Shown: one piece after another, positions 6,752 to 28,373 of the stretch
Layout of the letters: every line of letters starts with the position of its first letter
Numbering within the stretch: position 1 is the first letter of the stretch
Origin: Ralstonia soli
GTDB taxonomy: Bacteria; Pseudomonadota; Gammaproteobacteria; Burkholderiales; Burkholderiaceae
Direction: 5' to 3'
Length of the DNA stretch: 64,000 bases
NCBI RefSeq assembly: GCF_023955655.1
Contig: NZ_JAMXHT010000002.1
Span: forward strand, 372,001-436,000
Made by a program: the position numbers and the translations under genes
The notes under the pieces: model-generated
Databases searched by the model: none
What the model saw: the letters and a program-made list of their open reading frames with translations, nothing else
Told to the model about the DNA's origin: nothing

Positions 6752-7081
6752 TTACTTGGCAGCAACCGGCTTGAGCTGCATCACCCAATGCGCGAACTGG
6801 TCTGCCTCTTCGGGCGTGATCGCGTTCGGCGGCATGGTGCCGGCGCCCCATTTGCCGCTGCTGCCTTCGAGCATGCTCTTCTTCAGTTTCGCAATCGCGT
6901 CCGGATCGGTTTTGTAACGCTCGGCAATCGCGCGGAACGGCGGTCCGACTTTGGTCGTGTCCATCGCGTGGCACGCGCGGCAGGTGTCTTCGCTGGAAGA
7001 AGAGGCGGCGTGCCCGGGCACAACCAGCATGCCGGACAACGCCGCAAACATGGAGAGCACTGCCGATTTCATCAACGTCAT
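6752..7081 (-). CDS. Periplasmic class I cytochrome c
   Basis: 109 residues from MTLMKSAV. A signal peptide runs to about residue 26 (GHAA), then the heme site CRACH has Cys34, Cys37 and His38 and the distal ligand is Met83 in GTMPPN. Size and spacing fit a c5/c551-type single-heme electron carrier. The upstream alternative start (7114) adds a charged stretch before the signal peptide and is less likely. It is the last gene after a porin and an LVIVD-repeat protein on the same strand, 70 bp downstream of the latter. It may take electrons from a periplasmic oxidation in that operon; this is inference. Confidence 0.9.
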   Translation of the reverse strand: MTLMKSAVLSMFAALSGMLVVPGHAASSSSEDTCRACHAMDTTKVGPPFRAIAERYKTDPDAIAKLKKSMLEGSSGKWGAGTMPPNAITPEEADQFAHWVMQLKPVAAK

Positions 7082-7151
7082 GGAATTCCGTTCTTGTGCA
7101 GGCGCCCGCTGCAAGCCTGCGCAGGCGGGCGCCGGATTGGCTACAGGCTGA

Positions 7152-8975
7152 TCAGCGATGCGGCCAGGGTTTGGCAGGTGCGCCCATCACAGGCTCGCCC
7201 AGCAGCGGCGTCGACAGGGCGTAGGCGCCGTCTTCGGTAAAGGCCCAGATGATGTTGCGGTCGTACTCGGTGTAGATCGCGAACACGCCCTTGCCCAGCG
7301 TATACGACGGCAATTGCGTCTCGTCAGCCAGCGCAGGGATGAAGTAGCCCGCGATGGACGGGTGCGCAGGGTCCTTCACGTCATAGATCTGCACGCCCGC
7401 GTTGTAGAACGAATACGGCACCACGCCCTGTTTCCAGCCGCCCGGCTGGCCGATGGCGTTGGCACGTTTCGGGCCGTAGTTGCCGCCGCGCTGGCAGAAG
7501 CTGGTGAACGGCGCGCCTGGCGGGATCTCCGGCTCCGGCAGCTTGGTCGCGATCTTCAGGTGCTTCGGGTCGCGCGCGTCGACCACGAAGATGTCCTTGT
7601 ACGGCTCGTAGCAATCGCGGTTCATCGGATAGCCGTTGGTGAACACGTAGCCGGTGCGCGCGTATTGGCTCACGTCGGCGTTGTCGTATTCGGTACCGGC
7701 AAAGCTCGGTGGCGTGTTCACGTTGCTGAGCAGCTTCGGCTTGGCCGGGTCCGACAGGTCGAACGAATACAGCCCTAGGCCGCCCATCGCGCCGAAGCCG
7801 ATCTTGCCGCCGGCTTCCAGCGGCTTGGGCAGGAAGATCGGATTGCGCGAGCCCATCCACGACGTGCGGTTGCCGGCGCGCGGGTTCATCAAGTAGGCCT
7901 GCTCATGTTCGGCATTGCCCAGGATCTGGCCCGGCACGGCAATCTGCGAGACGAACTTCGGGTCGGCCGGGTCGGACATGTCCCACACCTGGTAGCCCGG
8001 TGAATACAGATAGTTCGGGTACTCGGTCAGCGCATAGCTGTCGTCTGGTGCGGAAGACAGGATCATGTACTTGCCACCGTAGTACTCGGGCGCATCCAGC
8101 GAACCCGAGCCCTGCTGCTGGCCGATCGGTGCATCGGGGTGCTGGTAGTCGGTCGTGCGGGTGGCGAGCAGCTTCCACTGGTCGGGCAGCGGGCCGTCCA
8201 TCTCGAACACCTTGAAGCCCTTGAGCGAGTTGTAGTTGCGCTGGGCGGCCACCTTGTCTGGCTGATCGATCTTCTCGGTCATCAGGCCATAGCGCCCGAT
8301 CTCGAACGAGGCCACCAGCACCGGCTTGCCGAGCTTCTTGCTCCACGCAATCGTGGCGCCGCCCAGGTAGTCCTGCACGGTGTTCGGGTTGTACTTCTCG
8401 CTCGAACCCTTCGGGCCCCACACGCCGCCCTTGGAGAACACGACCTTGCCGTTGGCCGGGTCGGTCACATCCATGATGCGCAGGTAGTCGCGGTCGTGGA
8501 TGTAGAGGTAACGCTTGCCCTGGAAGTCGACGATGTTGTTCCACGCGTGGAAGGGGGAGCCGACGCCCGGATAGAACGCCAGCACTTTCACGTTCTTGGC
8601 GTAGCTCTTTTTGTCCCAGGTGGTCATTTCACCGGGGAAGCGCTTGCCTTCGTGCACTTCCGGCGAGGCCTTCGGCCAGATGAACTTGCCGGTGGCCGGG
8701 TCCATGCCGTAGTCGACGCCGGCTTTGAGCGGCGCCGGTTTGCGGTCGGGCGTCAGGCGCAGCCAGCCGGCCAGGTACGGGTCTTTGACGTTGGGGGTGC
8801 CGGGCGTGCCAGACGGGGCGGCTGCGGGCGCCTGGCTGGCAGTCGCCTCGCCATGTGCGGCAGGGGCCGGCGGCTCGGACGCCGTCACCAGCGACGAGGC
8901 CGTGGCAAGGATGAACGCGAGCGTCGCACCCTGGGTCAGGGCGGTTTGCAGACGCTGATGTCGCGATCGAAGCAT
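7152..8975 (-). CDS. Secreted LVIVD-repeat (beta-propeller-like) protein
   Basis: 607 residues with a signal peptide ending near residue 32 and an Ala/Pro-rich linker. Repeated units then carry the LVIVD signature: LRIMDVTDPANG, YQVWDMSDPADP, LYSFDLSDPAKP, IFVVDARDPKHL and VQIYDVKDPAHP. Such repeats build propeller-like surfaces. Only two cysteines are evident in the mature part (NRDCYEP and SFCQRG), so one disulfide is possible. No catalytic motif is recognisable. It lies 27 bp downstream of a porin gene and 70 bp upstream of a cytochrome c gene on one strand. A role in periplasmic binding or oxidation of the compound admitted by the porin is speculation. Confidence 0.8.
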   Translation of the reverse strand: MLRSRHQRLQTALTQGATLAFILATASSLVTASEPPAPAAHGEATASQAPAAAPSGTPGTPNVKDPYLAGWLRLTPDRKPAPLKAGVDYGMDPATGKFIWPKASPEVHEGKRFPGEMTTWDKKSYAKNVKVLAFYPGVGSPFHAWNNIVDFQGKRYLYIHDRDYLRIMDVTDPANGKVVFSKGGVWGPKGSSEKYNPNTVQDYLGGATIAWSKKLGKPVLVASFEIGRYGLMTEKIDQPDKVAAQRNYNSLKGFKVFEMDGPLPDQWKLLATRTTDYQHPDAPIGQQQGSGSLDAPEYYGGKYMILSSAPDDSYALTEYPNYLYSPGYQVWDMSDPADPKFVSQIAVPGQILGNAEHEQAYLMNPRAGNRTSWMGSRNPIFLPKPLEAGGKIGFGAMGGLGLYSFDLSDPAKPKLLSNVNTPPSFAGTEYDNADVSQYARTGYVFTNGYPMNRDCYEPYKDIFVVDARDPKHLKIATKLPEPEIPPGAPFTSFCQRGGNYGPKRANAIGQPGGWKQGVVPYSFYNAGVQIYDVKDPAHPSIAGYFIPALADETQLPSYTLGKGVFAIYTEYDRNIIWAFTEDGAYALSTPLLGEPVMGAPAKPWPHR

Positions 8976-9002: not shown

Positions 9003-10043
9003 TCAGAATGCGTGTCGGATACCGACCTGGAAGCCGGTCGGGCTCTGGCCGGCGTTCGGGTAGGCCTGCCACGTCACCGGGTAGGGGACGGACACGTTGT
9101 TCTTGAGCTTGATGTGCGCGACCGTCGCGTACAGGTCGGTCCGCTTGGACAGCCCGTAGATGTAGCCGGCCACGAAGCCCACGGCGTTGGAGACCTTCAC
9201 GTTGTTGTCGTCGTGGCGGTACACGGCGCTGGCGTAGACGCGGCTGCGGCCGTCGATGTTCCAGCGTGCACCGAGCTGCGCATCCCAGCCGCGCGAGTTG
9301 AACGCAACGTACGGCGGGTAGGCGTAGTAGCCGTTGTAGGTGTGGAAGATGGCCGTGGGCTCGAAGCCGCCGATCTTGTAGACGGCCGAAAAGTAGTTGT
9401 CGCGCGACGAGTTGATGCGCCCGCTGTTGAAGATGTCGCGCGTGTATTGCAGTTCGCTCACCGCGCCCAGGAAGATCGGGCCGTTGCGGTATTCCAGGCT
9501 CGTGCTCAGGAAGCGCCCGGCGCGCGTGGTGTCTTCCAGACCGGTGGCATACATGACGCGGCCGGTGAAGTTGTAGAAGGTGGGCGTCTTGTACTGGATG
9601 GCGTTGTCCACGCGGTACGACGCGTAGAAGAACTCCATGTTGTTGACCATGCTGAAGTCCGCCGCCCAGCTCGGGTCGGCATAGCCGGCAATCCAGTACG
9701 ACGGCGTGAACTGGCGGCCCAGCGTGATCTCCCCATACTTGTCACTCTTCAGACCCACGAAGGATTGGCGGAACTGCGTCGCTTGCTTGCCGTCGTCTGC
9801 CGTGAACATCGGCTCGATCGTGAACACGGCGCGGTTGCCGTCGCCCAGGTCTTCCACGCCACTGATGTTGAAGCGCGAGTTGTTCAGCCCGCCGCTGGAC
9901 AGGCGCGTGGTCGTGCCGTTGCCGGACGAGATCAGGTGCGAGATGTTCAGGTCGACGTAGCCCGACAGCCGGACACGCGAGTCAGCCTGCGCCGTGGCGC
10001 ACACGCACAGCAGGGCGCCGGCGGCGATGAGGTTCCTTTTCAT
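9003..10043 (-). CDS. Gram-negative general porin, OmpC-like
   Basis: 346 residues with a signal peptide cleaved near ATAQA-D (about 21). The N-terminus has porin beta-strands (VRLSGYVDLN), and GVEDLGDGNRAVFTIEPMF and GEITLGRQFTPSYW are standard betaproteobacterial porin segments. It ends in the BAM-recognised VGIRHAF with terminal Phe. It should form a trimeric outer-membrane channel. It is the first gene of an operon with the LVIVD protein and cytochrome c. A TATAAT -10 candidate (10186-10181, minus strand) and a TGTGTATACACA palindrome lie upstream, so substrate-dependent expression through the GntR regulator is likely. Confidence 0.93.
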   Translation of the reverse strand: MKRNLIAAGALLCVCATAQADSRVRLSGYVDLNISHLISSGNGTTTRLSSGGLNNSRFNISGVEDLGDGNRAVFTIEPMFTADDGKQATQFRQSFVGLKSDKYGEITLGRQFTPSYWIAGYADPSWAADFSMVNNMEFFYASYRVDNAIQYKTPTFYNFTGRVMYATGLEDTTRAGRFLSTSLEYRNGPIFLGAVSELQYTRDIFNSGRINSSRDNYFSAVYKIGGFEPTAIFHTYNGYYAYPPYVAFNSRGWDAQLGARWNIDGRSRVYASAVYRHDDNNVKVSNAVGFVAGYIYGLSKRTDLYATVAHIKLKNNVSVPYPVTWQAYPNAGQSPTGFQVGIRHAF

Positions 10044-10157: not shown

Positions 10158-10169
10158 TGTGTATACACA
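10158..10169. promoter_or_regulatory. TGTGTATACACA palindrome, proposed GntR operator site A
   Basis: A perfect 12-bp palindrome, 115 bp before the porin ATG (10043, minus strand). Reading toward the porin it lies 11 bp downstream of a TATAAT hexamer (10186-10181), so it would cover the transcription start. The same GTATAC-centred palindrome recurs at 12821 and 15743, both at promoters in this island. A half-like copy, TTTATACAAAAC, lies at 10221-10232. The GntR-FCD gene at 14875 is the obvious candidate for the binding protein. Confidence 0.6.
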
Positions 10170-10275
10170 GACTGGAAAAAATTATACGTAGAGATTCATT
10201 TGAATTTAGAGCTTTATTTTTTTATACAAAACGGCGATTTGGTTATAGCGGGTTCACCCGGATAGCCAGCGCGCG

Positions 10276-11295
10276 TCAGAACAGATGCCGGATGCCCACG
10301 GCATACGTCATTGCCGTGGAAGAACCGCTTTGCCGGTCGTAGAGCGCCACGGCATAGACGTCCGTGCGCTTGGAGAACGCGTAGTCGAGCCCCGCCGCAG
10401 CCGTATTGCGCGTGCTGGAGACGCCGTGCGGCGCAGTACGGCGCGTGTTGGCCCATTCGCCCAAGAGCGACAGCTGCGCGGTCAGGGGCACGGACGCACC
10501 CACCTCATAGGTGTGCGAGCCGATATCGGTGGCGTTGGTGCGCGTGCCCTGGACGGCGCCATACAGCTTCAGCCAGGCAAAGTCGTAGGTGGCGCCGGCC
10601 AGGTAGGCGTCCTGGCTGGGCGCGGGTGTCCCCGCGACGATCCGGTTGCGTTGCACGGTTGCGACGGCAGTGAACGGCCCCGCCGTGTAATGCAGCGATG
10701 CGGCAGCGTTGTACATGCCCGACATGCCGGGTTTGCCGCCCAGCGCATACACGGCCGTCGCTTTCAGGCCGTTGAGGCTGGGTGTGCTGTACTGGATGCC
10801 GTCGTTCCACACCGTGTCGCCTGCGGTGGCGCCGCCGTATGACGCGACAAACGTCTGCATCACCAGCGGCGAGAACAGGATCGACGCCTGGAACGGGTTC
10901 AGCGTCTGCTCGCCCAGATACATCAGGTTGGTATGCCGCCCGAACGTCAGCTTGCCGAAATTGCCCTCCAGGCCGACATAGCTGTTGCGGCCCCAGAACG
11001 GGTCGGCCGAGGTGCGGCCGGTACCGCCGGTGTCGGGCTGGAAGAAGCTTTCCAGCACGGCGATGGCACGGGTGCCGCCGCCCAGGTCTTCGGTGGTCTT
11101 GATGCCCCAGTAGGGCGCGGTCAGGCCAGGAGCCTGCTGCATCAGCGTGGCGGGTGGGCCGCCACTGCGCTTGGAGCTCGCCATGTCGAGTCCAACCAGG
11201 CCGTACAGCGTGACAGAGGTTTGCGCCGGGGCGCAGTGCGACACGGACAGGCTGGCCACGCAAAGGGCCAGCGCAGGCAACGAGCGAGCGTGCAT
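10276..11295 (-). CDS. Gram-negative porin, second copy
   Basis: 339 residues from MHARSLPAL, with GGGGGA five bases before the ATG. A signal peptide runs to about residue 25 and is followed by the porin start TSVTLYGLVGLD. GIKTTEDLGGGTRAIAVLESFF and GKLTFGRHTN are family segments, and the C-terminus is VGIRHLF with terminal Phe. It is distinct from the other porin gene 230 bp away. It is the last gene after a VOC and a D-2-hydroxyacid dehydrogenase gene, 71 bp past the latter. Two catabolic-operon porins on both sides of one operator region suggest dedicated uptake. Confidence 0.93.
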   Translation of the reverse strand: MHARSLPALALCVASLSVSHCAPAQTSVTLYGLVGLDMASSKRSGGPPATLMQQAPGLTAPYWGIKTTEDLGGGTRAIAVLESFFQPDTGGTGRTSADPFWGRNSYVGLEGNFGKLTFGRHTNLMYLGEQTLNPFQASILFSPLVMQTFVASYGGATAGDTVWNDGIQYSTPSLNGLKATAVYALGGKPGMSGMYNAAASLHYTAGPFTAVATVQRNRIVAGTPAPSQDAYLAGATYDFAWLKLYGAVQGTRTNATDIGSHTYEVGASVPLTAQLSLLGEWANTRRTAPHGVSSTRNTAAAGLDYAFSKRTDVYAVALYDRQSGSSTAMTYAVGIRHLF

Positions 11296-11366
11296 GAAGA
11301 TCCCCCAGGGTTTGGGAGTGGGCGGGAAGGCGCAGCCGGCTTTCGCGCTGGCCGCGCCGGCGGCTT

Positions 11367-12311
11367 TCAGGCGCTGGGTATTGCGAGCTCCACGCGGGCG
11401 CGCGCGAAGTGCTGAGACAGGCTGGCGAGCAGCGCATCCCGTTGCGCCAGCCACGACGCGGGCGAACGGCCGGCCATGTGCGGCGTGATCAGGACGTCCC
11501 GGTGGCCGAAGAGCGCGGCGGGCACCTCCGGCTCGTTCTCGATGACGTCGAGCCCTACGCCGGCAATCTCCCCGGCATCCAAGGCATCGAGCAGCGCGCG
11601 GGTATCCAGCACCGAACCGCGCGACACGTTCACGACGTAGCCCGATTTGCCGAGCGCCTGCAGCACGGGGCGATCGACCAGATGCCGCGTCTCGGGGCCG
11701 CCGTTGCAGGCGATGACGAGGAAGTCGCTCACAGCGGCCAGTGCCGTTGCGCTGGCGTAGTACTGGCCCGGCGCATCGCGCTGCGGGCGGCGACCGTGAT
11801 AGCCGATCGTCATTGCAAAGCCTTGCGCGCGGGCGGCAATCAGCCTGCCGATGCGGCCCATGCCGACAATGCCGAGCGTGGCGCCGGTCAGCGTGGGTCG
11901 GGCCTGGCGCGACTGCTGCCACCGGCCCTGCTGCACGGCGGCGGTGAGCGGCGCATAGCCTCGCGCCAAGGCCAGCAGCATGCCGAACGCATGGTCGGCC
12001 ACCGTGTCGGCATTGGTGCCCGGCGCATGCGTGACGACGATGCCGCGCTGCGCTGCTGTTTTCATGTCGACGTTTTCATACCCGGCACCAAACGCGCAGA
12101 CGATCTCCAATGCTGGCAACTGCGTCATCTGCGCATCGGACAAGCCCGTCGAACCATTGGTGACGACGGCCCGGATTGTGGCGGCGTCCGGCACATCGCG
12201 CGGCATGCCGTCGGGGTAGTGGTGCAGCGTGTACTGCTTGCGCAATGCCGCGAGCGTCGATTCCGGCAACGCGATCAGGGCGAGCACCGCGGGCGGCGCC
12301 AGCTTGCTCAT
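11367..12311 (-). CDS. D-2-hydroxyacid dehydrogenase (NAD-dependent)
   Basis: 314 residues. The Rossmann motif GIVGMGRIGRLIA lies near residues 149-161. The catalytic triad is visible as Arg in VNVSRGSVLD, Glu in GLDVIENEP and His in LITPHMAG. The enzyme interconverts a 2-hydroxy and a 2-oxo acid; hydroxypyruvate/glyoxylate reductases are the nearest named group. Its ATG overlaps the VOC stop by 4 nt, and I rejected longer upstream starts for that reason. It probably handles an oxo acid released by the DapA-like or FAH-type enzymes of the same regulon; that is inference. Confidence 0.9.
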   Translation of the reverse strand: MSKLAPPAVLALIALPESTLAALRKQYTLHHYPDGMPRDVPDAATIRAVVTNGSTGLSDAQMTQLPALEIVCAFGAGYENVDMKTAAQRGIVVTHAPGTNADTVADHAFGMLLALARGYAPLTAAVQQGRWQQSRQARPTLTGATLGIVGMGRIGRLIAARAQGFAMTIGYHGRRPQRDAPGQYYASATALAAVSDFLVIACNGGPETRHLVDRPVLQALGKSGYVVNVSRGSVLDTRALLDALDAGEIAGVGLDVIENEPEVPAALFGHRDVLITPHMAGRSPASWLAQRDALLASLSQHFARARVELAIPSA

Positions 12312-12718
12312 GACTGTGCGGGCGCCACGTCTTTCACCGCGCCTTTCCAGCCGTTCTCGGTGATGTCGAAGACGGTGCCGTCGGGCATGCGGTACTTCAC
12401 CTCGTAGAACACGTTCGGGTCTTTCTCGTGGCGCCCGGTCAGGTAGGTGCCGCCTGCGGCCACGACACGCGCGGCCGTCTCTTCCACGCTGTCGACCCAC
12501 ATGCCGAAGTGGATCACGCCGCGCACGTCTTTCAGGCCGGCGTAGCCCGGTACGGTCTCGTCCTTGAAGTTGAGCAGCGCGACGTTCATCGTGCCGTCCG
12601 TCATGTAGATGCCGCGCATGGCGTTGCCGGCGCGGCGCATGCCGAAGGCTTTCTCAAAGAATTGGGCGGCGGCTTCCGGGTCTTCAACGGAAAGCGCGAT
12701 ATGGCGAAGTTTGTCCAT
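12308..12718 (-). CDS. VOC family protein (glyoxalase/dioxygenase superfamily)
   Basis: 136 residues from MDKLRHIALSVED. The fold markers are RHIALSVEDPEAAAQFFEKAFGM at the N-terminus (first metal His at 6), VIHFGMWVDSVEE in the middle and MPDGTVFDITENGW at the end. These give a VOC metal site with His/His/Asp-Glu type ligands. The start at 12718 is preferred over 12799, because GAGG lies upstream and family proteins begin with this motif. It is the first gene of the minus operon with the dehydrogenase and a porin, divergent from the hydrolase/DapA genes across the site B operator. Confidence 0.85.
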   Translation of the reverse strand: MDKLRHIALSVEDPEAAAQFFEKAFGMRRAGNAMRGIYMTDGTMNVALLNFKDETVPGYAGLKDVRGVIHFGMWVDSVEETAARVVAAGGTYLTGRHEKDPNVFYEVKYRMPDGTVFDITENGWKGAVKDVAPAQS

Positions 12719-12820
12719 ATGGGTGTCCTCAATGCGGGGTCGGCGTGCGACGGGATGGAAGGTGTCGCGACTGTGCCGCAAGTTCGGCGGCTCATTCATT
12801 GGGTATACTACTTACACATC

Positions 12821-12830
12821 GTGTATACAC
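12821..12830. promoter_or_regulatory. GTGTATACAC palindrome, proposed GntR operator site B
   Basis: A perfect 10-bp palindrome in the 209-bp gap between the divergent VOC (12718, minus) and alpha/beta hydrolase (12928, plus) genes, followed by AAAAC as at site C. GGTATACT lies 18 bp away at 12802-12809 and could serve as a -10 on either strand. One bound dimer could control both divergent operons. The remainder of the gap shows no other gene-like feature. Confidence 0.55.
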
Positions 12831-12927
12831 AAAACAGAATTTATATACCAGAATAAGCCTCAATCGCCGTTCGAGAGAAATCCCCAGCCGGTGGACTTCG
12901 CTTCGGATGTCACGCAGGAGGCCTTGG

Positions 12928-13875
12928 ATGCACGCTTTGCAGGAACCGCTCGGCAATCTTTCCGCCGAGCTCAGGCAGCGCTTTGCGCAGATCGGCGCGG
13001 TATGGGGGCGTGATATCAACGCGCACCGCGATCTGGTGATCGCGGCCTATACGCCGCTGGTGGCGGCGGCGGCCAATGACGTGGCGGACGCCTGTGAAGT
13101 GCAGCGTGACCAGCCCTACGGGCCGGACGAGCGCCAGCGACTGGACGTCTTCGTTCACACCGCAACGCGCGAGGCGGGCCAGGCTGATGTGGTGGTGTTC
13201 GTGCACGGCGGCGCGTTTTTGCGCGGCAGCAAGAGCTTCAACGGGCTGATCTACGACAACGTGTCGCGCTGGTTTGCGCGGCAGGGGTGCGTGGCGATCA
13301 ACGTGGAATACCGGCTGGCACCGCAGGCGCCGTATCCCGCCGGGGCGGAGGATGTTGCGGCCGCGCTCGACTGGGTGCGCACGCATGCCGCTGGGCTGGG
13401 TGGCAATCCGCAGCGGATCTTCCTGGTCGGGCACTCGGCGGGTGGAGCGCATGTCGCCACGTACCTCGCCGATCCGGTATTGGCTGCGCGGCGCAGCGTG
13501 CCGGTGGCAGGTGCGGTGCTGATCAGCGCCCGCGTGGTTGCCGACGTGCTGCCCGACAACCCCAACGCAGCCGGCGTGCGTGCGTATTTCGGGGATGACG
13601 CTGCCTTGTATGAAGAGCGCTCACCGCTCGCCCATGCAGAGCGCATCGACGTGCCGCTGATGGTGGTCGTGGCCGAACACGAAAACCCGTATCTCGACGC
13701 TTATGGCGCGGCCTTCTTCGAGCGCGTAGCCCAGGCACGCCAGCGCACGGGCCGCCCTGCGCGGGCGCCGCGCTTCGTGCAGATGCTCCGGCACAACCAC
13801 ACCTCGGTGGTCGCGCATTTCGATTCCGGCGAGACGCTGCTCGGCGACGCGATGCTCGATTTCTTCCGCGCCTGA
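12928..13875 (+). CDS. Alpha/beta hydrolase of the HGG (carboxylesterase/arylformamidase-like) type
   Basis: 315 residues from the ATG at 12928, which has AGGAGG six bases upstream. The oxyanion-hole motif HGGAF lies at 93-97 and the nucleophile elbow GHSAGG at 168-173 (Ser170). The acid is probably in AEHENPYLD and the His is in LRHNHTSV. YGPDERQRLDVF before the first strand resembles kynurenine formamidase-like members, but short-chain esterases share it. It probably opens an ester, lactone or amide. DapA follows 49 bp downstream in the same operon. Confidence 0.88.
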   Translation: MHALQEPLGNLSAELRQRFAQIGAVWGRDINAHRDLVIAAYTPLVAAAANDVADACEVQRDQPYGPDERQRLDVFVHTATREAGQADVVVFVHGGAFLRGSKSFNGLIYDNVSRWFARQGCVAINVEYRLAPQAPYPAGAEDVAAALDWVRTHAAGLGGNPQRIFLVGHSAGGAHVATYLADPVLAARRSVPVAGAVLISARVVADVLPDNPNAAGVRAYFGDDAALYEERSPLAHAERIDVPLMVVVAEHENPYLDAYGAAFFERVAQARQRTGRPARAPRFVQMLRHNHTSVVAHFDSGETLLGDAMLDFFRA

Positions 13876-13924
13876 GGGCTTGCCGTTCCGTTCATCCAAC
13901 AGGAAAAGAAAACAGGAGATCCGC

Positions 13925-14848
13925 ATGTCCGCATTTGGCAAGCCGCGCGTGTTCGTGCCCGTCGTCACGCCGTTCCGTCCTGATCTGAGCGTCGATACGC
14001 CGCGTTTTGTCGCGTTCTGCCGCTGGGTGGTCGAGCAGGGCGCGGGGCTGGCCGTGTTCGGTACCAACAGCGAGGCCAACTCGCTGAGCCTGGCCGAACG
14101 CCGCGCGGTGCTCGATGCGGTGCTCGACGCCGACATCGACCCCGCGCAACTGCTGCCGGGCACCGGCGCCTGCGCCATCACCGAGGCGATTGAACTGACG
14201 CGCCATGCGGCGGCAGCCCATTGCGCGGGCGTGCTCATGCTGCCGCCGTTCTACTACCAGGGCGTGAGCGACGACGGCCTGTTTGCGTATTACTCCGAGG
14301 TCATCCAGGCTGTGGGGTCGGACACGCTGCGGGTGCTGCTGTATCACATCCCGCAGTTCACAGGCGTGCCGATCTCGCATGCGCTGATCGAGCGCCTGAT
14401 CGCCGCTTACCCGAACACCGTGGTCGGCATCAAGGACAGTTCAGGCGATTGGGCGAATACCGAGGCCATGCTCAAGCGCTTTCCTGGCTTTGCCGTGTTT
14501 CCTGCATCCGAAGCGTTGCTCGGCAAGGCACTGCCGCTGGGCGCGGCGGGCTGCATTTCAGCCACGGCCAACCTGCAGCCGCATGCGATTGCCCGCCTGC
14601 TGGCGGCGACCACGGCCGAAGACCGTGCCGTGTGGGAAAACAAGGTGACGGCGTTGCGCACGATCGTGCAGGCGCTGCCGATGATTCCAGCGCTCAAGGC
14701 CGTGGTGGCGCATCACATGCTGCACGCCGGCTGGGCCCGCGTGCGCCCGCCGCTGACGGCGTTCAGTGCAGAACAGGCAAGTGCGCTGCTGGCGCAGCTC
14801 GATGCGTTGGGGTTCTCGATGCCGCCGGCAGAGCAGGTGACGGCATGA
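13925..14848 (+). CDS. DapA/NAL superfamily aldolase or hydro-lyase
   Basis: 307 residues forming a class I Schiff-base TIM barrel. Lys170 in GIKDSSGD should bind the oxo-acid substrate, and Tyr140 in YHIPQFTG is the proton shuttle. The loop normally GTTGE is GTNSE here (46-50), so it is not ordinary dihydrodipicolinate synthase. The expected reaction is cleavage or dehydration of a 4-hydroxy-2-oxo acid giving pyruvate or a semialdehyde. It follows the alpha/beta hydrolase and converges with the gntR gene. Its catabolic context argues against lysine synthesis. Confidence 0.88.
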   Translation: MSAFGKPRVFVPVVTPFRPDLSVDTPRFVAFCRWVVEQGAGLAVFGTNSEANSLSLAERRAVLDAVLDADIDPAQLLPGTGACAITEAIELTRHAAAAHCAGVLMLPPFYYQGVSDDGLFAYYSEVIQAVGSDTLRVLLYHIPQFTGVPISHALIERLIAAYPNTVVGIKDSSGDWANTEAMLKRFPGFAVFPASEALLGKALPLGAAGCISATANLQPHAIARLLAATTAEDRAVWENKVTALRTIVQALPMIPALKAVVAHHMLHAGWARVRPPLTAFSAEQASALLAQLDALGFSMPPAEQVTA

Positions 14849-14874
14849 GCGTGATGTGCCGGTCGGAGGTGGCC

Positions 14875-15537
14875 TCAGGCGCTGGCGCGATTGCCGTGCT
14901 GCTGCTTCTTCAGGCGGCCCAGCACGACGATCGACAGCCGCGCGGTGTGGTCGCGCATCGCGTTGTAGGCGCGTTCCGGATCGGCGGCCAGGATGGCGGA
15001 GACGATCTCGCGGTGCTCGTCGGTAGCGGCTTCGAAGCGCGACGGCGTTGCCGGCTGCGCGGCGCGGAAGCCCGCCAGGCGCTGGCGCTGCACCGCAATG
15101 ATCGACGCCAGCGACTTGCTCTGCGCGCCCTTGCAGATCAGCTCGTGGAACTCGCGGTTGAGCTCGAAGTAGAGGGCTTCGTCACCGCGCGCGATGGCCT
15201 CGTTCATATCGCTCTGGAGCACCTCGAGCTGCTTCTTCTCGACCACGCTCATGCGTTGCGCGCTCAGGCGGCAGCAGAGCGCTTCAAGCTCGCACATGGC
15301 TTCGAGCATGTCGGCCAGTTCTTCGATGCTGAACTGTGCGACCACCACGCCCTTGCGCGGCGTGAGCTCGACCAGCCCGCGGACGGCCAGCTCGCGCAGG
15401 GCCTCGCGGATGGGCGTGCGCGACGCATTGAAACGCTCGGCCAGCGCCGCTTCTTCGAGCTTCTGACCGGGTTCAAGCGTGCCGTCGATGATCTCGTCGC
15501 ACAGCAGTCGATAGATTTTGGAAGAGAGCGTCGTCAT
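14875..15537 (-). CDS. GntR family regulator, FadR/FCD subfamily
   Basis: 220 residues. The N-terminal winged helix has KIYRLLCDEIIDGTLEPGQKL, then RFNASRTPIREALREL as the recognition helix (about 34-49). The all-helical FCD effector domain from about residue 85 includes Asp/His positions typical of metal-assisted carboxylate binding. It is divergent from the FAH/ABC operon and convergent with the DapA operon. The repeated TGTATACA palindromes in this island fit the short, symmetric sites such dimers bind. I propose it as the local repressor, released by a pathway acid. Confidence 0.93.
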   Translation of the reverse strand: MTTLSSKIYRLLCDEIIDGTLEPGQKLEEAALAERFNASRTPIREALRELAVRGLVELTPRKGVVVAQFSIEELADMLEAMCELEALCCRLSAQRMSVVEKKQLEVLQSDMNEAIARGDEALYFELNREFHELICKGAQSKSLASIIAVQRQRLAGFRAAQPATPSRFEAATDEHREIVSAILAADPERAYNAMRDHTARLSIVVLGRLKKQQHGNRASA

Positions 15538-15721
15538 CGTGGCAAGGGTGGGGTTGAGCGCAACGGCGTCTGCAGAGATGTGCGTCGCATTATGCGCCAG
15601 CCGCCCCCAAGGGCAACCCGATGCGATGCGTTGCGCGCGCAGTCTTTGGCATCAGCGGCTTGCCTGGGCGAGCCCATGGTCTGCCGGTTTTTCTGGAATG
15701 GGAGTATACGCTAGTTACATG

Positions 15722-15750
15722 TTGAATACATAGATTGATATATGTATACA
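15722..15750 (+). promoter_or_regulatory. Promoter TTGAAT-N17-TATACA with overlapping operator site C (TGTATACA)
   Basis: A TTGAAT hexamer at 15722-15727 and a TATACA hexamer at 15745-15750 are spaced by exactly 17 bp, giving a good sigma-70 promoter 36 bp before the FAH gene. The palindrome TGTATACA (15743-15750) covers the -10 and is followed by AAAC. This is the cleanest case for direct repression by the divergent GntR protein. The rest of the 248-bp gap (15538-15785) shows another GTATAC at 15703-15708 and nothing else. Confidence 0.65.
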
Positions 15751-15785
15751 AAACAAATTCACTCATCACGACAGTGGGGACACAA

Positions 15786-16706
15786 GTGATCAGGTTCGGG
15801 ATTGCAAGCTATGAATTGAATGGCCGCGTTGCTGCCGGATTGAGCGTTGGCGACGCGCTTTACGATGCGCAGACCGCGTTGAAAGCGGCGACAGGACACG
15901 CCGCGCCGATAGACGTCGACGGCTTGGTCCGAGGCTGGGACCAGAACGGCGCGGCCACCGTGCAGCAATTCGAGGAGGCGGCACGCGCCATTGCCGAGGG
16001 CACCATCGACGCCAAGCCGCTCACCGGCTACCGGCTGCGCGTGCCGTTCACGCCGCGCCGCATCTTTGCCGCGGCTTCCAACTATTACGAGCACGCCCGC
16101 GAGATGGGCACCGAGCTGGCGCCGCGCGAGGAAAGCACGCCCTACATGTTCATGAAGGCCGAAACCAGCGTGGTGCCGACATTGGCTGAAGTGCGCATTC
16201 CGCCGCAGGCCGAACGTGTGGATTGGGAGGTGGAACTGGCCGTGGTGATCGGCAAGCCGGGTCGGCATATTGCCCTTGAAGATGCGCTGGATTACGTGGC
16301 CGGCTACACGGTGCTGAACGACGTGAGCGCGCGCGATCTCAACCGCCGGACGGACTATCCGTTCAAACACGACTGGTTTCGCGGCAAGAGTTTCGATACC
16401 TTCGGGCCCCTGGGGCCGTGGCTGGTGCCCCGTGCGTGCATTGCCGAACCGCAGAACCTGCGCATGCGGCTGACCGTCAACGGCGAGACCATGCAGGACG
16501 GCAACACGTCGGAGATGATCTTCAGCGTGGCCGAGCAGATTCACTATCTGTCGTCGATCCTGACGCTGCAGCCGGGCGACGTGATTGCGACGGGCACGCC
16601 GACGGGGGTCGGCATGGGCCGCGGCATCTACCTGAAGCCGGGCGACGTGATGGTGGCGTCCATTGACGGCATCGGTTCGATCGAGAATCCGCTGGTGCAG
16701 GGGTAA
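15786..16706 (+). CDS. Fumarylacetoacetate hydrolase (FAH) family protein
   Basis: 306 residues from a GTG at 15786 (MIRFGIASYE), with GGGGA about seven bases upstream. The earlier TTG lies inside the promoter and is excluded. The C-terminal FAH domain (about 95-304) holds the metal ligands in RVDWEVELAVVIGK and NDVSARDLN, and the closing GDVIATGTPTGVG. The family hydrolyses or decarboxylates acylpyruvate-like ring-cleavage products. As the first gene before an ABC transporter and an extradiol-type VOC gene, it probably acts just after ring opening. It is not the tyrosine-pathway enzyme, which is present at 48546. Confidence 0.9.
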   Translation: MIRFGIASYELNGRVAAGLSVGDALYDAQTALKAATGHAAPIDVDGLVRGWDQNGAATVQQFEEAARAIAEGTIDAKPLTGYRLRVPFTPRRIFAAASNYYEHAREMGTELAPREESTPYMFMKAETSVVPTLAEVRIPPQAERVDWEVELAVVIGKPGRHIALEDALDYVAGYTVLNDVSARDLNRRTDYPFKHDWFRGKSFDTFGPLGPWLVPRACIAEPQNLRMRLTVNGETMQDGNTSEMIFSVAEQIHYLSSILTLQPGDVIATGTPTGVGMGRGIYLKPGDVMVASIDGIGSIENPLVQG

Positions 16707-16760: not shown

Positions 16761-17762
16761 ATGCTGGAGCGGGTAAGTGCCCTGGTCCGCGGGCTGGTGC
16801 TTGCGGCGGGGCTTGGGGTTGGGTCGATGCCAGTCGCGCATGCGGCCGACGCCGTGCGCGTCAACCTGGCATGGCTGCCCCAGGGCAGCACGGGCGGCAT
16901 TCTGCTCGCCCAGGCCAAGGGCTACTACAAGGAAGCCGGCCTGGACGTGACCGTCATGCGCGGCTACGGCGGCCAACGCACGGTCAACGAGGTCGACGCC
17001 GGGCTCTTCGAGTTCGGCTACGGCGACCCCGTGAGCGTGACGCTGAACCGCGCCCACGGCGGCCGCACGGTGATGGTGGGCGCAATCAACACGCGCTGGC
17101 CGGGTGCCATGTGTTACGTGGAGCGGCCTGGCTTCAAGGTGACTTCTCTGAAGGACCTGGCCGGCATGACGCTGGGCGGCGGCGGTGCATCGGCGGTGCA
17201 GAACATCGTGCCGGCCTGGCTCAAGCAGAACGGCATGGCGCCCGACGCGATCAAGCTGGTGCGACTGGACCCGGCGGTGATCAACACCGCGCTGCTGCAA
17301 AAGCGCATCGACCTGTCGGAATGCTGGGAGGGCGCGAGCCTGCCCGTGCAGCAGGCGTTCGCACAGCGGGCGGGCCAGAAGCTGGGCAAGGTGTACTACC
17401 GCGATTTCGGCCTGGACATGATGGGCAGCGGCATTGTCACGACCGACCGCTACATCGCGCAGCATCCGGATGTAGTCAAGCGTTTTGTCGAGGCCACGTA
17501 CCGCGGCTACGCCTTCATGCGTGATCAGCCCAAGGCCGCGGCGGACGCGATCGTCGCGCAGCAGCCGCTGCTCGATCGCGCCATCCTGCAAGAGCAGATT
17601 GCGGAAACCAACAAACTGATCTCCGACGAACCGGCCAAGCACAAGATCGGCTGGCTGCGGCCTGAACGCATCAACGCGACGGTCGATTTCCTGTCGCGCG
17701 CGTTTGATCTGGGTGGCAAGGTGAAGGCCGCCGACCTGTACACCAACCGCTTCGTCGAATGA
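16761..17762 (+). CDS. ABC transporter substrate-binding protein, NMT1/SsuA/THI5 type
   Basis: 333 residues with a signal peptide cleaved after AHAADA (about 29). VNLAWLPQGSTGGILLAQAKGYYKEAGLDV is the standard first lobe of NMT1-like binding proteins. The two-lobed fold continues with SVTLNR, GGGGASAVQN and NTALLQKR segments. Relatives bind sulfonates, pyrimidines, nitrate, riboflavin or phthalate-like aromatics, so the ligand cannot be read. It precedes the VOC enzyme, permease and ATPase genes on one strand and forms a complete importer with them. Confidence 0.9.
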   Translation: MLERVSALVRGLVLAAGLGVGSMPVAHAADAVRVNLAWLPQGSTGGILLAQAKGYYKEAGLDVTVMRGYGGQRTVNEVDAGLFEFGYGDPVSVTLNRAHGGRTVMVGAINTRWPGAMCYVERPGFKVTSLKDLAGMTLGGGGASAVQNIVPAWLKQNGMAPDAIKLVRLDPAVINTALLQKRIDLSECWEGASLPVQQAFAQRAGQKLGKVYYRDFGLDMMGSGIVTTDRYIAQHPDVVKRFVEATYRGYAFMRDQPKAAADAIVAQQPLLDRAILQEQIAETNKLISDEPAKHKIGWLRPERINATVDFLSRAFDLGGKVKAADLYTNRFVE

Positions 17763-17840
17763 TTGCTGAGTAGGCGTGGAACAAATTCGGGGCTGCGGCC
17801 CAACCCGCCCGCCATGCACGGGCACATTGGAGTGAGACAC

Positions 17841-18431
17841 ATGAACAGCTTGCGTCCCAAGCGGCTTGGACACATGGTTTTGATGGTGCGGGACATCCAG
17901 CGCTCGGCCAAGTTCTATACCGAAGTCCTGGGCCTGAAGGTCTCGGACTGGATCGGCGACCAGATGGTCTTCCTGCGCGCCGGCACCGACCACCACGACC
18001 TGGCGCTGTCCCAGCTGCCGAAAGATTCGCCCGACTTCAACGACCTGCCGCGCTACTCGCGTCCGGGGCTGGAGCACTTCTCCTACCTGATCGACAGCGT
18101 TGAAGAGATGGAGCGCTCGGTCAAGGTGTTGCAGGAGCACGGCGTGGAGATTGTGCGCGGCATCGGCCGTCACGGCCCGGGCGACAACTACTTCCTCGTC
18201 TTCAAGGACCCGGACGGCAACAACGTCGAGGTCTACTGCAACATGGAGCAGATTGGCGAGCGTGACCCCCGCGAGGCCCAGGTGTGGGAGCGCAGTATCG
18301 AATCGTTCGACCAGTACCGCTTCGAGCGCTTTGTCGTGCCGCCGCCGCCGCATCTTGTTGCGCAAAAGTCGGGCGCATCGGCACCCAAGGCGGAGCCAGC
18401 CGACAAAGAGCATCCTGGAGACAAGTCATGA
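17841..18431 (+). CDS. Extradiol-dioxygenase-like VOC protein inside the ABC operon
   Basis: 196 residues from the ATG at 17841 (GGAG eight bases upstream). One VOC pair carries GHMVLMVRD (His11), a second ligand region at GLEHFSYLID (about 78) and DPDGNNVEVYC (Glu about 128), which is the His/His/Glu layout of Fe(II) extradiol dioxygenases. The last 40 residues are Pro/Ala/Lys rich and probably disordered. The stop overlaps the permease ATG by 4 nt, so synthesis is coupled to the transporter. Cleavage of an imported catechol-like ring is plausible; non-dioxygenase VOC activity is not excluded. Confidence 0.85.
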   Translation: MNSLRPKRLGHMVLMVRDIQRSAKFYTEVLGLKVSDWIGDQMVFLRAGTDHHDLALSQLPKDSPDFNDLPRYSRPGLEHFSYLIDSVEEMERSVKVLQEHGVEIVRGIGRHGPGDNYFLVFKDPDGNNVEVYCNMEQIGERDPREAQVWERSIESFDQYRFERFVVPPPPHLVAQKSGASAPKAEPADKEHPGDKS

Positions 18432-19171
18432 AGCGCGTGCTCGAAACCGCCGCGTTCTGGATCGTCGTCGGGCTGGTGTGGGAGTTTGGCGTGCGCTGGA
18501 GCGGTGCGCCGGAGTATGTATGGCCATCGCTGTCGTCCGTGCTGGCTGCGGGGTGGGAGATGCGCGCACAACTGCTGAGCGATACCGCCACCACGGCGGG
18601 TGAAGTTTTTGCAGGCTTCATGCTCGCGCTGGTGAGCGGTCTTGCGCTGGGGTTGCTGGCCAGTGCATCGGCCATCGCGCGGCGCACGCTGTTCCCGCTC
18701 GTGACGGCTCTGCAGAGCATGCCCAAGATCGCGCTGGCACCGTTGCTGATCGTCTGGTTTGGCTACGGGTTTGCCTCCAAGCTGGCGGCGGCGGTGTTGT
18801 TTGCGTTCTTCCCGATTGTGGTGGCCACCATGGGCGGGCTGGCTGGTGTGCCGCAGAACCTGGACGAGCATTTCCGCGCGCTCGGCGCATCGGCTTCGCG
18901 CACGTTCTGGCACCTGCGTCTGCCCGCCGCCATGCCCGCCTTGATGGACGGCCTGAAGATCGCCATGCCGCTCGCGGTGATCGGCGCGATCGTGGGCGAG
19001 TTCATCGGCTCGGAGTCGGGGCTTGGGCATCTGATCGTGTTCGCAACGTCGAATGCGCAAACGCCGCTGTGCTTTGCGGCCATCCTGATGGTGACGGCGC
19101 TGGCCATGGTGTTCTACGCCGTGGTCGATTGGGTCTCGCGTGCTGTCTGGTGGAGAGGAGTCACGGTCTGA
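18428..19171 (+). CDS. ABC transporter permease, SsuC/TauC type
   Basis: 247 residues with about six membrane segments and the permease-ATPase coupling motif around EHFRALGASASRTFWHLRLPAAMP (EAA loop). It is the inner-membrane channel for the NMT1-type binding protein at 16761. The ATG overlaps the VOC stop, and its own stop overlaps the ATPase ATG (TGATG), so the three genes are translated as a unit. Much longer in-frame starts are shadows of the VOC gene. Confidence 0.92.
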   Translation: MKRVLETAAFWIVVGLVWEFGVRWSGAPEYVWPSLSSVLAAGWEMRAQLLSDTATTAGEVFAGFMLALVSGLALGLLASASAIARRTLFPLVTALQSMPKIALAPLLIVWFGYGFASKLAAAVLFAFFPIVVATMGGLAGVPQNLDEHFRALGASASRTFWHLRLPAAMPALMDGLKIAMPLAVIGAIVGEFIGSESGLGHLIVFATSNAQTPLCFAAILMVTALAMVFYAVVDWVSRAVWWRGVTV

Positions 19172-20022
19172 TGGCAATCGTCAATCTGTCGCGCGCTGTG
19201 CCGCGCGAAACCGCAGTGCTTGCTGCCGCCAATCCGGCCCCGCAGGATACGGAAGCTCGCGTGATGATCGATGTCGACAACGTCGGCAAGCGGTTTGCTG
19301 CGCGCGGTGGCGCTGCTGCATTCAATGCGCTGGAAGACGTATCGATGCAGGTGCGGCAGCGCGAGTTCGTCTCCATCCTGGGGCCGAGCGGCTGCGGCAA
19401 GAGCACGCTGCTGCGCATGGTGTCGGGGCTTGTGGCGTGCGACGCGGGCGAGATCCGCGTCGACGGCCGGTCGATCAACGCGCCCGTCCCCGAGATCGGC
19501 GTGGTGTTCCAGACCAGCAACATGCTGCCCTGGCTTACCGTGGGCGACAACATCCGCCTGGGCGCCAAGCTGCGCAATCTGCCGAGCGTGAAGACCGAGG
19601 CGCGCCTGCCGGGCCTGCTCGATACGCTAGGCCTCACGCAGTTTGTCGACCGCTATCCGCACGAGCTGTCGGGAGGCATGCGTCAGCGCGCGGCCATCGG
19701 CCAGATCCTGCTGCTGGAGCCGCGTGTGATGCTGATGGACGAGCCGTTCGGTGCGTTGGATGCGCTCACGCGCGACAAGCTCAACGTCGAGCTGCTGCGC
19801 ATCTGGCAGCAGAGCACGTTGACCGTGCTGCTGGTCACGCACAGCATTCACGAGGCGGTGTTCCTGTCGGACCGCGTGCTGGTGATGTCGCCACGGCCCG
19901 GCCGGGTGCAGCACGACGTGAAGATCGACCTGCCGCGTCCCCGCCAGCCGGACGAGATCAAGCGCGACCCGCGCTACGGCGAGTACGTGTCGGAACTGTC
20001 CCGCATGATGGGGGTGTTCTGA
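19171..20022 (+). CDS. ABC transporter ATP-binding protein, SsuB/TauB type
   Basis: 283 residues. Walker A is GPSGCGKST (71-79), the Q-loop lies in VFQTSNMLPW, the signature is ELSGGMRQR, Walker B is VMLMDEPFG and the switch His is in VTHSIHEA. It powers the importer formed with the binding protein and permease upstream. An N-terminal extension of about 30 residues precedes the usual start of the domain, and the internal MIDVDNVGKRF could be an alternative start. A GC-rich hairpin follows the gene. Confidence 0.94.
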   Translation: MAIVNLSRAVPRETAVLAAANPAPQDTEARVMIDVDNVGKRFAARGGAAAFNALEDVSMQVRQREFVSILGPSGCGKSTLLRMVSGLVACDAGEIRVDGRSINAPVPEIGVVFQTSNMLPWLTVGDNIRLGAKLRNLPSVKTEARLPGLLDTLGLTQFVDRYPHELSGGMRQRAAIGQILLLEPRVMLMDEPFGALDALTRDKLNVELLRIWQQSTLTVLLVTHSIHEAVFLSDRVLVMSPRPGRVQHDVKIDLPRPRQPDEIKRDPRYGEYVSELSRMMGVF

Positions 20023-20082: not shown

Positions 20083-21072
20083 ATGCAAACTGACATGCAA
20101 GCCAATCCGCTCAGCGAGATCTCCCTGATCCGCCGGCTGAAACTGAATCAACTGATGATCTTCGAGCGCGTGCTGGAAACGCGCTCGGTGGTGCGCGCCG
20201 CCAACGAGATGCGGCTGACGCAGCCCGCGGTGACCAAGGTCATCCACGAACTGGAGTCATGCTTTGACGGCGCGCTGTTCTCGCGCTCCAACCGTGGGGT
20301 GGTGCCGACGGAACTGGGGCTGATGCTGGGCCGGCGCGTAAAGTCGTTGATGGCCGAGCTGCGTTACATGACCGACGAGCTGAACGACTTCCGGCTCGGC
20401 ACCAGCGGGCATGTGATCGTCGGCACGTTGATCTCGGCATCGGCGCGGTTGTTGCCGCGCGCCATCGCCATGCTCAAGGCGCGCACGCCCAATGTGTTGG
20501 TCACCGTGCGTGAAGGCACGACCGCACACCTGTTTCCAGCGCTGGCGACGGGCGATCTGGATATCGTCGTCGGCCGCCTGCCTGAACGGGAGTTGCCGAT
20601 TGCGAGCGCGTTTCCGCTGACGCACGAAGCGTTGTTCGATGAGTCGCTGTGCGCGGTGGTGGGCAAGGGCTATGGCGCCTTGCCCGAGCGAGTGGCGCAT
20701 CTGTCGGAGCTGGCGGGCTCGCCGTGGATTCTGCCGACGCCGGATTCCCCCGCGCGCTTGGCGGCTGAGCACCTGTTCCGCTCCGCTGGCTTGCCGTTGC
20801 CGACCGACATCGTGGAATCGCTTTCGCTGCTGACCAACATCGGTTTGCTGCTGGAAACGCCCCGCATTGCGTTGATGCCGCGCGTGGCGGCCCGGCAGTT
20901 TGCCGATGCGGGCCTGCTGCGCATTCTCGACCTGCCGGAGACGGCTGCGTTCGGCACCGTGGGGTTCTCGCTGCGCTCGCACAAGGAGCAGAGCGCAGCG
21001 TGCCGCGCCTTTATCGAATGCTTGCAGGAAGCCGCGCAGGCGGCCGCGCCCGAATCCGGCGCACTGGCCTGA
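20083..21072 (+). CDS. LysR family regulator of the 3-hydroxyanthranilate operon
   Basis: 329 residues from ATG 20083, with a second ATG at 20095. The helix-turn-helix lies at about 25-65 (VVRAANEMRLTQPAVTKVIHELE), and the effector domain resembles the GbpR/CbnR-like branch with GTLISASARLLPRAI. It lies upstream of and on the same strand as the nba-type operon, 127 bp away. Because it is not divergent, it could be expressed from its own promoter or by read-through from the ABC operon. An nbaR-like activator role is inferred from position. Confidence 0.88.
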   Translation: MQTDMQANPLSEISLIRRLKLNQLMIFERVLETRSVVRAANEMRLTQPAVTKVIHELESCFDGALFSRSNRGVVPTELGLMLGRRVKSLMAELRYMTDELNDFRLGTSGHVIVGTLISASARLLPRAIAMLKARTPNVLVTVREGTTAHLFPALATGDLDIVVGRLPERELPIASAFPLTHEALFDESLCAVVGKGYGALPERVAHLSELAGSPWILPTPDSPARLAAEHLFRSAGLPLPTDIVESLSLLTNIGLLLETPRIALMPRVAARQFADAGLLRILDLPETAAFGTVGFSLRSHKEQSAACRAFIECLQEAAQAAAPESGALA

Positions 21073-21100
21073 AACCCAGGCGGGACAAGGCTTGCGCTGG

Positions 21101-21117
21101 TATTCCGGTTTGGGATA
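21101..21117. promoter_or_regulatory. Dyad TATTCC-N5-GGGATA, candidate LysR box
   Basis: An imperfect inverted repeat containing a T-N11-A core lies 83 bp before the GTG of the aldehyde dehydrogenase gene, which heads the operon. The placement fits an activator site upstream of a promoter in the 127-bp gap. The LysR gene immediately upstream is the likely binder. Confidence 0.4.
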
Positions 21118-21199
21118 CTCAGCGCCGAATGTTTCATTGTTCTTCTCTGCCGCGGGTCCCTAGACTCCTGCCAAACCTTCAACGAGCGCAGGAGACGTT

Positions 21200-24446: not shown

Positions 24447-24459
24447 CCGGAGATCGACC

Positions 24460-26276: not shown

Positions 26277-26295
26277 GACTGAACCTCGGATTGCT

Positions 26296-27284
<989 letters not shown>

Positions 27285-27321
27285 CGGTCTGGCGTTCCCC
27301 CACAAGCAATTGCAATTGACG

Positions 27322-28332: not shown

Positions 28333-28373
28333 ATGGCCCCGCCACGAACCTTTAAAACACACAGCAAGACACC

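Follow-up and report, generated by a model that had tools for sequence, protein, structure and literature searches.

A predicted GntR-FCD regulon with operator arrays at 20-bp steps in a catabolic gene island of Ralstonia soli

Introduction

The question raised by this locus is whether three matching palindromes in the genome of Ralstonia soli are operators of a single regulon governed by the GntR-FCD regulator gene in their midst, and how such a regulator would use them. The window analyzed is the whole stretch of 64,000 nucleotides at positions 372,001 to 436,000 of contig NZ_JAMXHT010000002.1 (assembly GCF_023955655.1), and coordinates refer to it unless another locus is named. An initial annotation, made from the letters of the sequence, had proposed one GntR-FCD regulon spanning four transcription units with single palindromes at their promoters. 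The explanation that we strongly favor overall is that the GntR-FCD protein represses a four-unit catabolic regulon through operator arrays, from which it would be released by a carboxylate.

The palindromes and their regulator

All three sites contain the 8-mer TGTATACA. Operator A, TGTGTATACACA (10158-10169), lies at the promoter of a porin gene (porin1), just downstream of the -10 element; the adjoining TATAAT is read on the minus strand (10186-10181), 13 bp from the 8-mer. Operator B, GTGTATACAC (12821-12830), is found in the divergent gap between VOC1 and an alpha/beta hydrolase gene. Operator C, TGTATACA itself (15743-15750), lies at the promoter of the FAH and ABC transporter genes, where a promoter-like TTGAAT-N17-TATACA is present on the plus strand (15722-15750, with hexamers at 15722-15727 and 15745-15750) and the palindrome covers its -10; the promoter scanner did not call this sequence. 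These placements agree with the initial annotation, as does that of the regulator gene gntR in the middle of the island (14875-15537, minus strand). It encodes a protein of 220 amino acids with a GntR winged helix-turn-helix (PF00392, 71.3 bits, curated cut-off 27) and an FCD domain (PF07729, 89.2 bits, cut-off 24.3), which places it in the FCD (FadR) subfamily.

In the window, three copies of TGTATACA were seen where 0.05 were expected, and none of 100 dinucleotide shuffles reached three. Across the genome (5,726,971 bases) the 8-mer occurs at six places, three of them operators A, B, and C, and a reversed control pattern occurs at five. Chance frequency across the genome had been named as an outcome that would tell against the regulon. 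Given six places against five for the control, the total is indeed chance-like, which counts against a regulon; the distribution is not, as three of the six places fall in a 5.6-kb stretch that surrounds a single GntR-FCD gene, and all three are intergenic. The 10-mer GTGTATACAC occurs in the whole genome at operators A and B only, and sequences within two mismatches of TGTGTATACACA are scarcely commoner than those of its reversed control (29 versus 24). A genome-wide regulon was rejected: the other three copies of TGTATACA fall in one frame that we take to resemble mnmG and in two origin-like stretches.

Known systems are compared here as they are described in excerpts of the papers cited. 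Atu1419 of Agrobacterium fabrum belongs to the VanR group of FCD-GntR proteins (PDB 6z74 and others) and is reported to bind ATGTATACAT, with Arg45 contacting a guanine; its zinc site is of the Asn/His3 type, it is tetrameric, and a second palindrome of degenerate sequence can also be used (PMC7797058). The window GntR matches it with an E value of 3.4e-15 (60.1 bits). Residues E29, R40, T41, and R44 align with the DNA-contact residues Glu34, Arg45, Thr46, and Arg49 of Atu1419, and all four are invariant in a 7-row alignment of relatives and invariant or at least 90% conserved in a 20-row alignment. Arg31 and Gly66 of Atu1419 are not kept (K26 and R61 in GntR). Moreover, N127, H131, H175, and H197 align with the zinc ligands N137, H141, H192, and H214; judged from this alignment, GntR keeps the ligands of the FCD metal-site class, an Asp or Asn with three His. 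With a match of this strength, and with neighboring genes that differ from those described for Atu1419 in the excerpts, GntR was not assigned to the Atu1419 orthologue group. It also scored below the cut-offs of the TIGR03338 phnR_burk equivalog (125.4 versus 271.5 bits) and the NCBIfam NanR model (52.2 versus 260 bits).

Conservation among relatives

Relatives of gntR were sampled with one genome per species, giving 41 loci (the window and 40 others, L007-L046) on which the following counts are based; a Nocardia locus (L047), whose gntR is 27% identical and which has no site, was excluded. The exact TGTATACA is carried by 38 of the 41 loci, with 87 sites in total, all outside the best matches of 18 reference proteins. 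Compared with 63 other palindromes of equal composition (64 in all), it ranked first by number of copies; the next reached 49 copies, 41 of which were inside reference-protein matches. Chance as the origin of the sites was rejected on the grounds of the shuffles, the 64 like palindromes, and position.

The palindrome was found to follow its target genes through rearrangement. Loci of the Ralstonia and Paraburkholderia type have sites in the gap between FAH and gntR, in that between hydrolase and VOC1, and before the porin, some of these loci being without an exact copy at all three. The gene order is rearranged in Pandoraea, Collimonas, Undibacterium, and Herbaspirillum, where FAH faces the D-2-hydroxyacid dehydrogenase gene (HADH) and VOC1 faces gntR, and sites are still found before these genes; in the rearranged Pandoraea loci a site also precedes the porin. 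Likewise, C. metallidurans has a rearranged order with a site beside the equivalent target genes. The porin1 promoter holds the exact 8-mer in 19 of 20 loci of the Ralstonia and Paraburkholderia type (L024 does not) and in 11 of 11 Pandoraea-type loci shown. Phylogenetic footprinting thus supports the proposal of one GntR-FCD regulon, and comparison of these sequences makes it very likely that a single regulon covers the palindrome-bearing units.

Within the genus, GTGTATACAC is present exactly twice in each of the four genomes with gntR and is absent from all 12 genomes that lack gntR. Since the cluster is gained or lost as a unit, this co-occurrence indicates that the motif has no other use there and is not a sign of binding itself. 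Outside the genus, the 10-mer is no guide to the presence of gntR: 35 genomes have it without a gntR match (1e-50), and two (G045 and G073) have gntR without GTGTATACAC. A search of the order at 1e-55 found gntR in three of 399 genomes, the R. soli genome included, and the palindrome stands beside gntR in records of about ten genera. A plasmid search gave five records, from which Diaphorobacter and C. metallidurans were used as held-out loci; B. arboris was represented by locus L044 and its plasmid record left out. A P. sprentiae plasmid (L112) has a FAH relative of 39% identity and an FCD gene, with no gntR match and no 7/8 copy of the palindrome. Extra matches of the decarboxylase query, at about 35% across loci, were taken as paralogous hydratase matches. 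In one genome without gntR (L069), two perfect GTGTATACAC were found 23 bp apart (8775 and 8798); perhaps another regulator with the same core acts there.

Replaced operators in a diverged relative

Further evidence came from Diaphorobacter sp. HDW4B, found in the plasmid search, whose regulator is 42% identical to the window GntR. Its fetched stretch of 17.7 kb has no TGTATACA and four copies of GGTATACC, against 0.04 expected. One lies after gntR and one upstream of the porin; the other two are found in the gap between VOC1 and hydrolase and before the gene for a tripartite-transporter binding protein. A single regulator predicts a shared change of all operators beside the same genes, and the replacement in Diaphorobacter therefore fits one regulator. 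In the protein, the stretch before the recognition helix reads AQQF in Diaphorobacter and AERF, SERF, or AARF in the other rows. Its locus (L110, 3240-4930 and 13677-14099) also encodes a RidA-family protein and a protein annotated as malonic semialdehyde reductase, together with the tripartite-transporter binding protein; this gene set with RidA hints at a nitrogen-containing intermediate.

The palindromes could instead be bound by a different regulator, either another FCD protein of the genome or the LysR protein encoded at 20083. SRTPxREAL-type recognition helices are common in FCD proteins, which means that specificity may be shared; the genome has 20 FCD genes, gntR being one, and a LysR gene lies near the cluster in some loci. 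On the other hand, the site accompanies gntR in the 38 loci, including Paraburkholderia loci whose fetched stretches have no LysR gene or lower pathway. The exact TGTATACA was found in the scanned upstream stretch of none of the 19 other FCD genes, with one-mismatch copies at three (the stretch scanned at L092 is short), and the operators differ where GntR itself has diverged, as in Diaphorobacter. A different regulator was consequently judged very improbable.

Several observations weigh against a single GntR-FCD regulon as read here. Three Herbaspirillum loci (L030, L032, and L035) have near-matches only and no exact site, and Pandoraea terrae (L024) has an exact site at one gap only. The genome also encodes 19 other FCD regulators, and binding and control of expression are predictions from sequence.

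Operator arrays

Each palindrome is flanked by degenerate copies that were not in the initial annotation. The weaker 8-mers mostly follow the strong one with 12-bp spacers, which gives 20-bp steps from center to center; in the counts below, a partner is a copy with at least six of the eight letters of TGTATACA. Beside operator B, GGTATACT (12802-12809) and TATATACC (12842-12849), both 6/8, lie 20 bp away on either side. Beside operator C, TGAATACA (15723-15730, 7/8) lies 20 bp away over the -35 and AGTATACG (15703-15710, 6/8) lies 40 bp away. The weaker boxes of array A, read on the minus strand, are CGTATAAT (10181-10188, 5/8), which contains the -10 and is 21 bp from operator A, a second box at 41 bp (10201-10208, 5/8), and TGTATAAA at 61 bp (10221-10228, 7/8). 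The box at 60 or 61 bp recurs from Ralstonia to Pandoraea, and two related Ralstonia loci have their outer box at 60.

A copy with 6/8 or more lies 20 bp away, on one side or the other, at 40 of the 87 sites; such a copy lies at 60 bp at 15 sites, at 61 at 15, at 40 at nine, and at 18 at eight. For the remaining offsets between 8 and 70, offset 22 being excluded as well, the mean is 0.35 sites and the maximum four. With values averaged over 18 groups of clade and promoter, offset 20 exceeds the mean over offsets by 5.9 standard deviations and the best period is 20, with 10 a close second. A partner at 20 bp is found in 36 of the 38 loci with the exact palindrome. In a test against shuffled flanks, with one random locus per clade-promoter group and a threshold of 7, the best secondary box was phased in 8.7 of 20 groups versus 0.14 in shuffles, and none of 400 shuffles reached the observed value.

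The rule was then confronted with held-out loci, examined after it was seen and not used to find it. In locus L066, whose gntR is 55% identical, a second perfect TGTATACA stands at exactly 20 bp from the first, the pair enclosing TTGACA, and L067 (52%) has TGTATACA with TGTATGCA (7/8) at 20. In 36 kb of C. metallidurans CH34 (gntR 52%) there are three exact sites, against 0.07 expected, namely between FAH and HADH, between VOC1 and gntR, and before another porin, all three with a 6/8 copy at 20. Its porin1 promoter, as read from the sequence, carries four boxes with 12-bp spacers, the last being AGTATACA. The 20-bp rule thus fits five of five held-out promoters with an exact palindrome; in three, 20 is the sole offset within 70 bp with at least 6/8, and in the other two, both from C. 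metallidurans, two further offsets reach it too.

That a 20-bp pair is a general habit of TGTATACA was rejected. Control sites were 20 of the 45 GTGTATACAC places outside the genus, drawn from 19 of the 35 genomes without gntR; none of the 20 has a 20-bp partner and the profile is flat at 20 (-0.5 standard deviations). One control (L089) has a perfect copy at -63, and in another (L072) a contig end cuts the +20 side. Among 370 genomes of the class, six hold two exact TGTATACA with a spacer of 2-32 bp, and the spacers are 13, 30, 10, 21, 3, and 15, never 12.

An alternative accepts the regulon and takes the weaker boxes for promoter hexamers. Half of TGTATACA is similar to elements of the TATAAT and TTGAAT kind, and the 20-bp steps would then follow from a constant promoter-to-operator distance. 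This agrees with the first weaker box of A containing the -10 and with the first weaker box of C over the -35 while the strong site is over the -10, where the 17-bp promoter spacing gives a 20-bp step; Diaphorobacter, without a clear partner, agrees as well. It accounts poorly for L066 and L067, where the two copies straddle TTGACA and TTGACT, respectively, and for boxes at 40 bp (in the gap between FAH and gntR) and at 60 or 61 (in porin promoters), which lie outside the -35 and -10. Moreover, the boxes flanking the position of operator B in L024 (GGTGTACT and GGTATACC) keep their 20-bp steps though the middle box has decayed. Hexamers thus explain part of A and C and not well the other cases, and as a full account of the weaker boxes they seem unlikely.

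Other observations tell against the array reading. The steps at operator A are 21, 41, and 61, and the positions of several weaker boxes are those of -10 or -35 hexamers. Loci L020 and L024 lack a 20-bp partner, and at the three sites of L068 (taken as the same record as L039 and not counted) the partners at 20 score 1, 6, and 5 of eight letters on the better of two sides. With the Diaphorobacter core GGTATACC as the reference, none of the four sites in that locus has a 6/8 partner at 20; with TGTATACA as the reference, one has. The groups are also partly homologous, and homologous promoters are not independent; we estimate about five independent promoter layouts. On the sequence comparison as a whole, the predicted operators are members of 20-bp-phased arrays and not single palindromes.

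Proposed mechanism

The following model is proposed as the most likely. The GntR-FCD protein would repress four transcription units. Each array would offer it one strong palindrome with a core of TGTATACA, in many cases resembling TTGTGTATACACAA, and next to this weaker copies that recur every 20 bp, close to two turns of the helix. Bound as dimers or as a tetramer, the protein would then occupy a single face of the DNA, with the strong box nucleating assembly, and RNA polymerase would be blocked at the -10 and -35 (operator C, and probably B) or at the start (operator A). The imported compound would be converted to a carboxylate that binds in the zinc pocket of the FCD domain and frees the repressor from the DNA; release by a pathway carboxylate is suggested by that pocket. 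The further notion that the arrays act as an operator ruler of 20-bp period, with two to four dimers along one DNA face across the promoter and with the strong and weak boxes deciding how large the assembly grows and so how far each unit is repressed, has about an even chance of being right. Of the original proposal of four units with single palindromes, the single regulon stands; the sites were found to be array members, and the porin unit is probably longer.

Activation by GntR in place of repression was also considered. Arrays reach upstream of the -35 at the porin and FAH promoters, and CitO, an FCD protein, is described as an activator in the excerpts. Against this, the strongest box lies over the -10 (operator C) or just downstream of it (operator A), which is typical of repression, and Atu1419, with the same core, represses according to its excerpted description. 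Activation is therefore improbable and repression is preferred.

Whether gntR controls itself is a separate matter. A promoter-like TTGCCC-N16-CATAAT for gntR (15616-15589, minus strand) contains GGCGCATAATG, which is kept in 21 of 23 gaps between FAH and gntR. It lies more than 120 bp from operator C, and direct autoregulation in this genome is for that reason doubtful. The gap between VOC1 and gntR does contain a site in Pandoraea and in part of the Herbaspirillum group.

Comparison with known systems

Atu1419 is alike in its GntR and FCD domains, in an operator that has the core TGTATACA within ATGTATACAT, in the kept contacts and zinc site, in a palindrome over the -10, and in a second degenerate palindrome; it controls aromatic-acid catabolism (PMC7797058). 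Unlike the sites here, which step by 20 bp and serve different genes, its partner sites are separated by 190 or 109 bp and brought together in a loop by the tetramer (PMC7797058).

Motifs of the FadR subfamily follow the consensus GTM-N0-1-KAC, with weaker half-boxes 7-12 nt from the center, and a 2-nt spacing between GT and AC is listed for GntR, HpxS, HypR, MdcY, PrpR, and UxuR (PMC4494728). The GTATAC core of operators A, B, and C fits this palindrome type, and the subfamily also has sites in divergent gaps, weaker accessory boxes and, in some divergons, site pairs at constant distance (PMC4494728). The accessory boxes described there are half-sites, whereas here whole boxes lie at 20, 40, and 60 bp. 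The study of 36 FadR-type groups took positions -20/-21 as a background control, just where the partner box lies in these arrays (PMC4494728).

NanR of E. coli, also of GntR type, places three dimers on a repeated operator but uses direct GGTATA repeats, not palindromes at 20-bp steps (PMC8012715). No GntR operator with 20-bp steps and no cluster with the same gene set was recognized in the literature as searched by listings and passages. AraR of Bacillus subtilis differs from the window GntR in its effector domain and targets. It shares a GntR-type helix-turn-helix and binds several adjacent sites cooperatively (PMC4494728).

Genes of the regulon and its surroundings

The first unit would run on the minus strand from porin1 (Porin_4 by Pfam, 9003-10043) into a gene for an LVIVD-repeat protein (7152-8975; PF08309, 22.2 bits, cut-off 20.2) and possibly a cytochrome c gene (6752-7114, weak cytochrome c matches). 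The LVIVD gene is found on the same strand 3' of porin1 in 32 of 32 fetched loci with porin1 (at least 50% identity), with a gap below 300 bp in 30 and of 305 and 347 bp in the other two; the cytochrome c relative is present in 13 of these 32. The porin1 unit thus probably carries the LVIVD gene and perhaps the cytochrome c gene. Relatives of the LVIVD-repeat protein beside porin1 are 77-95% identical, and in distant loci it is better conserved than the porin. Upstream of the array, a conserved GGG-n4-CCCGCTATAA element is found in porin1 promoters from Ralstonia to Pandoraea (10240-10265 in the window), possibly the site of a second regulator.

The remaining units were assigned by domain search. 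The second would comprise, on the minus strand, VOC1 (12308-12721, glyoxalase/dioxygenase superfamily), HADH (11367-12311) and, as its likely end, porin2 (Porin_4, 10276-11295). The third would comprise the alpha/beta hydrolase (Abhydrolase_3, 12928-13875) and a DHDPS-family lyase (13925-14848), both on the plus strand. The fourth, also on the plus strand, would begin with the FAH-family hydrolase (15786-16706, a probable start, searched as 15735-16706) and continue with the ABC transporter and VOC2: an NMT1-type substrate-binding protein (16761-17762), the extradiol-dioxygenase-like VOC2 (17763-18431), a permease (18428-19171, by family search) and, as its likely end, an ATPase frame (19069-20022; ABC_tran, 111.9 bits) whose true start is probably downstream of 19069. 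No name for the pathway substrate could be obtained from the protein families or solved structures of the cluster proteins.

Beyond this unit (20083-31100) lie a LysR gene (20083) and, from 21200 on, genes for 2-hydroxymuconic semialdehyde dehydrogenase, hydratase, acetaldehyde dehydrogenase, and aldolase, together with a decarboxylase, an amidohydrolase, a kynureninase-like protein, and an amino acid permease. With the LysR gene, this set resembles a lower pathway of the kynurenine type. TGTATACA was found neither in the LysR gene nor in these genes, and together they are probably a separate regulon; in many Paraburkholderia loci they were not found beside the gntR cluster in the fetched stretches.

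The two origin-like stretches with TGTATACA elsewhere in the genome (L005 at 225181 and L006 at 252033) lie 26.9 kb apart on the same contig and share a near-identical core of about 60 bp. This core contains TTATCCACA-like boxes, TACTACTACTATC, which we take to resemble a DnaA-trio, and TGTATACATAAAG; the 3-kb surroundings differ, with 903 of 3008 positions in agreement. The pair looks like a two-part chromosome origin.

Implications

From a guess based on three sites, the analysis arrives at a predicted regulon with an exact operator rule, in which the porin, LVIVD protein, transporter, lyases, and dioxygenase-like enzymes are linked into one pathway that is probably induced. The regulon is of a familiar type of FCD regulation; what differs, and looks new, is the 20-bp array layout, in a family for which most descriptions of operators give a palindrome and, at most, half-sites close to it. 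If true, the ruler mode would be distinct from single palindromes, from the direct repeats of NanR, and from the long loop of Atu1419. The exchange of TGTATACA for GGTATACC in Diaphorobacter would provide a natural pair from which to read the recognition code, and a relative in which all operators have changed offers a way to study the joint change of a regulator and its sites.

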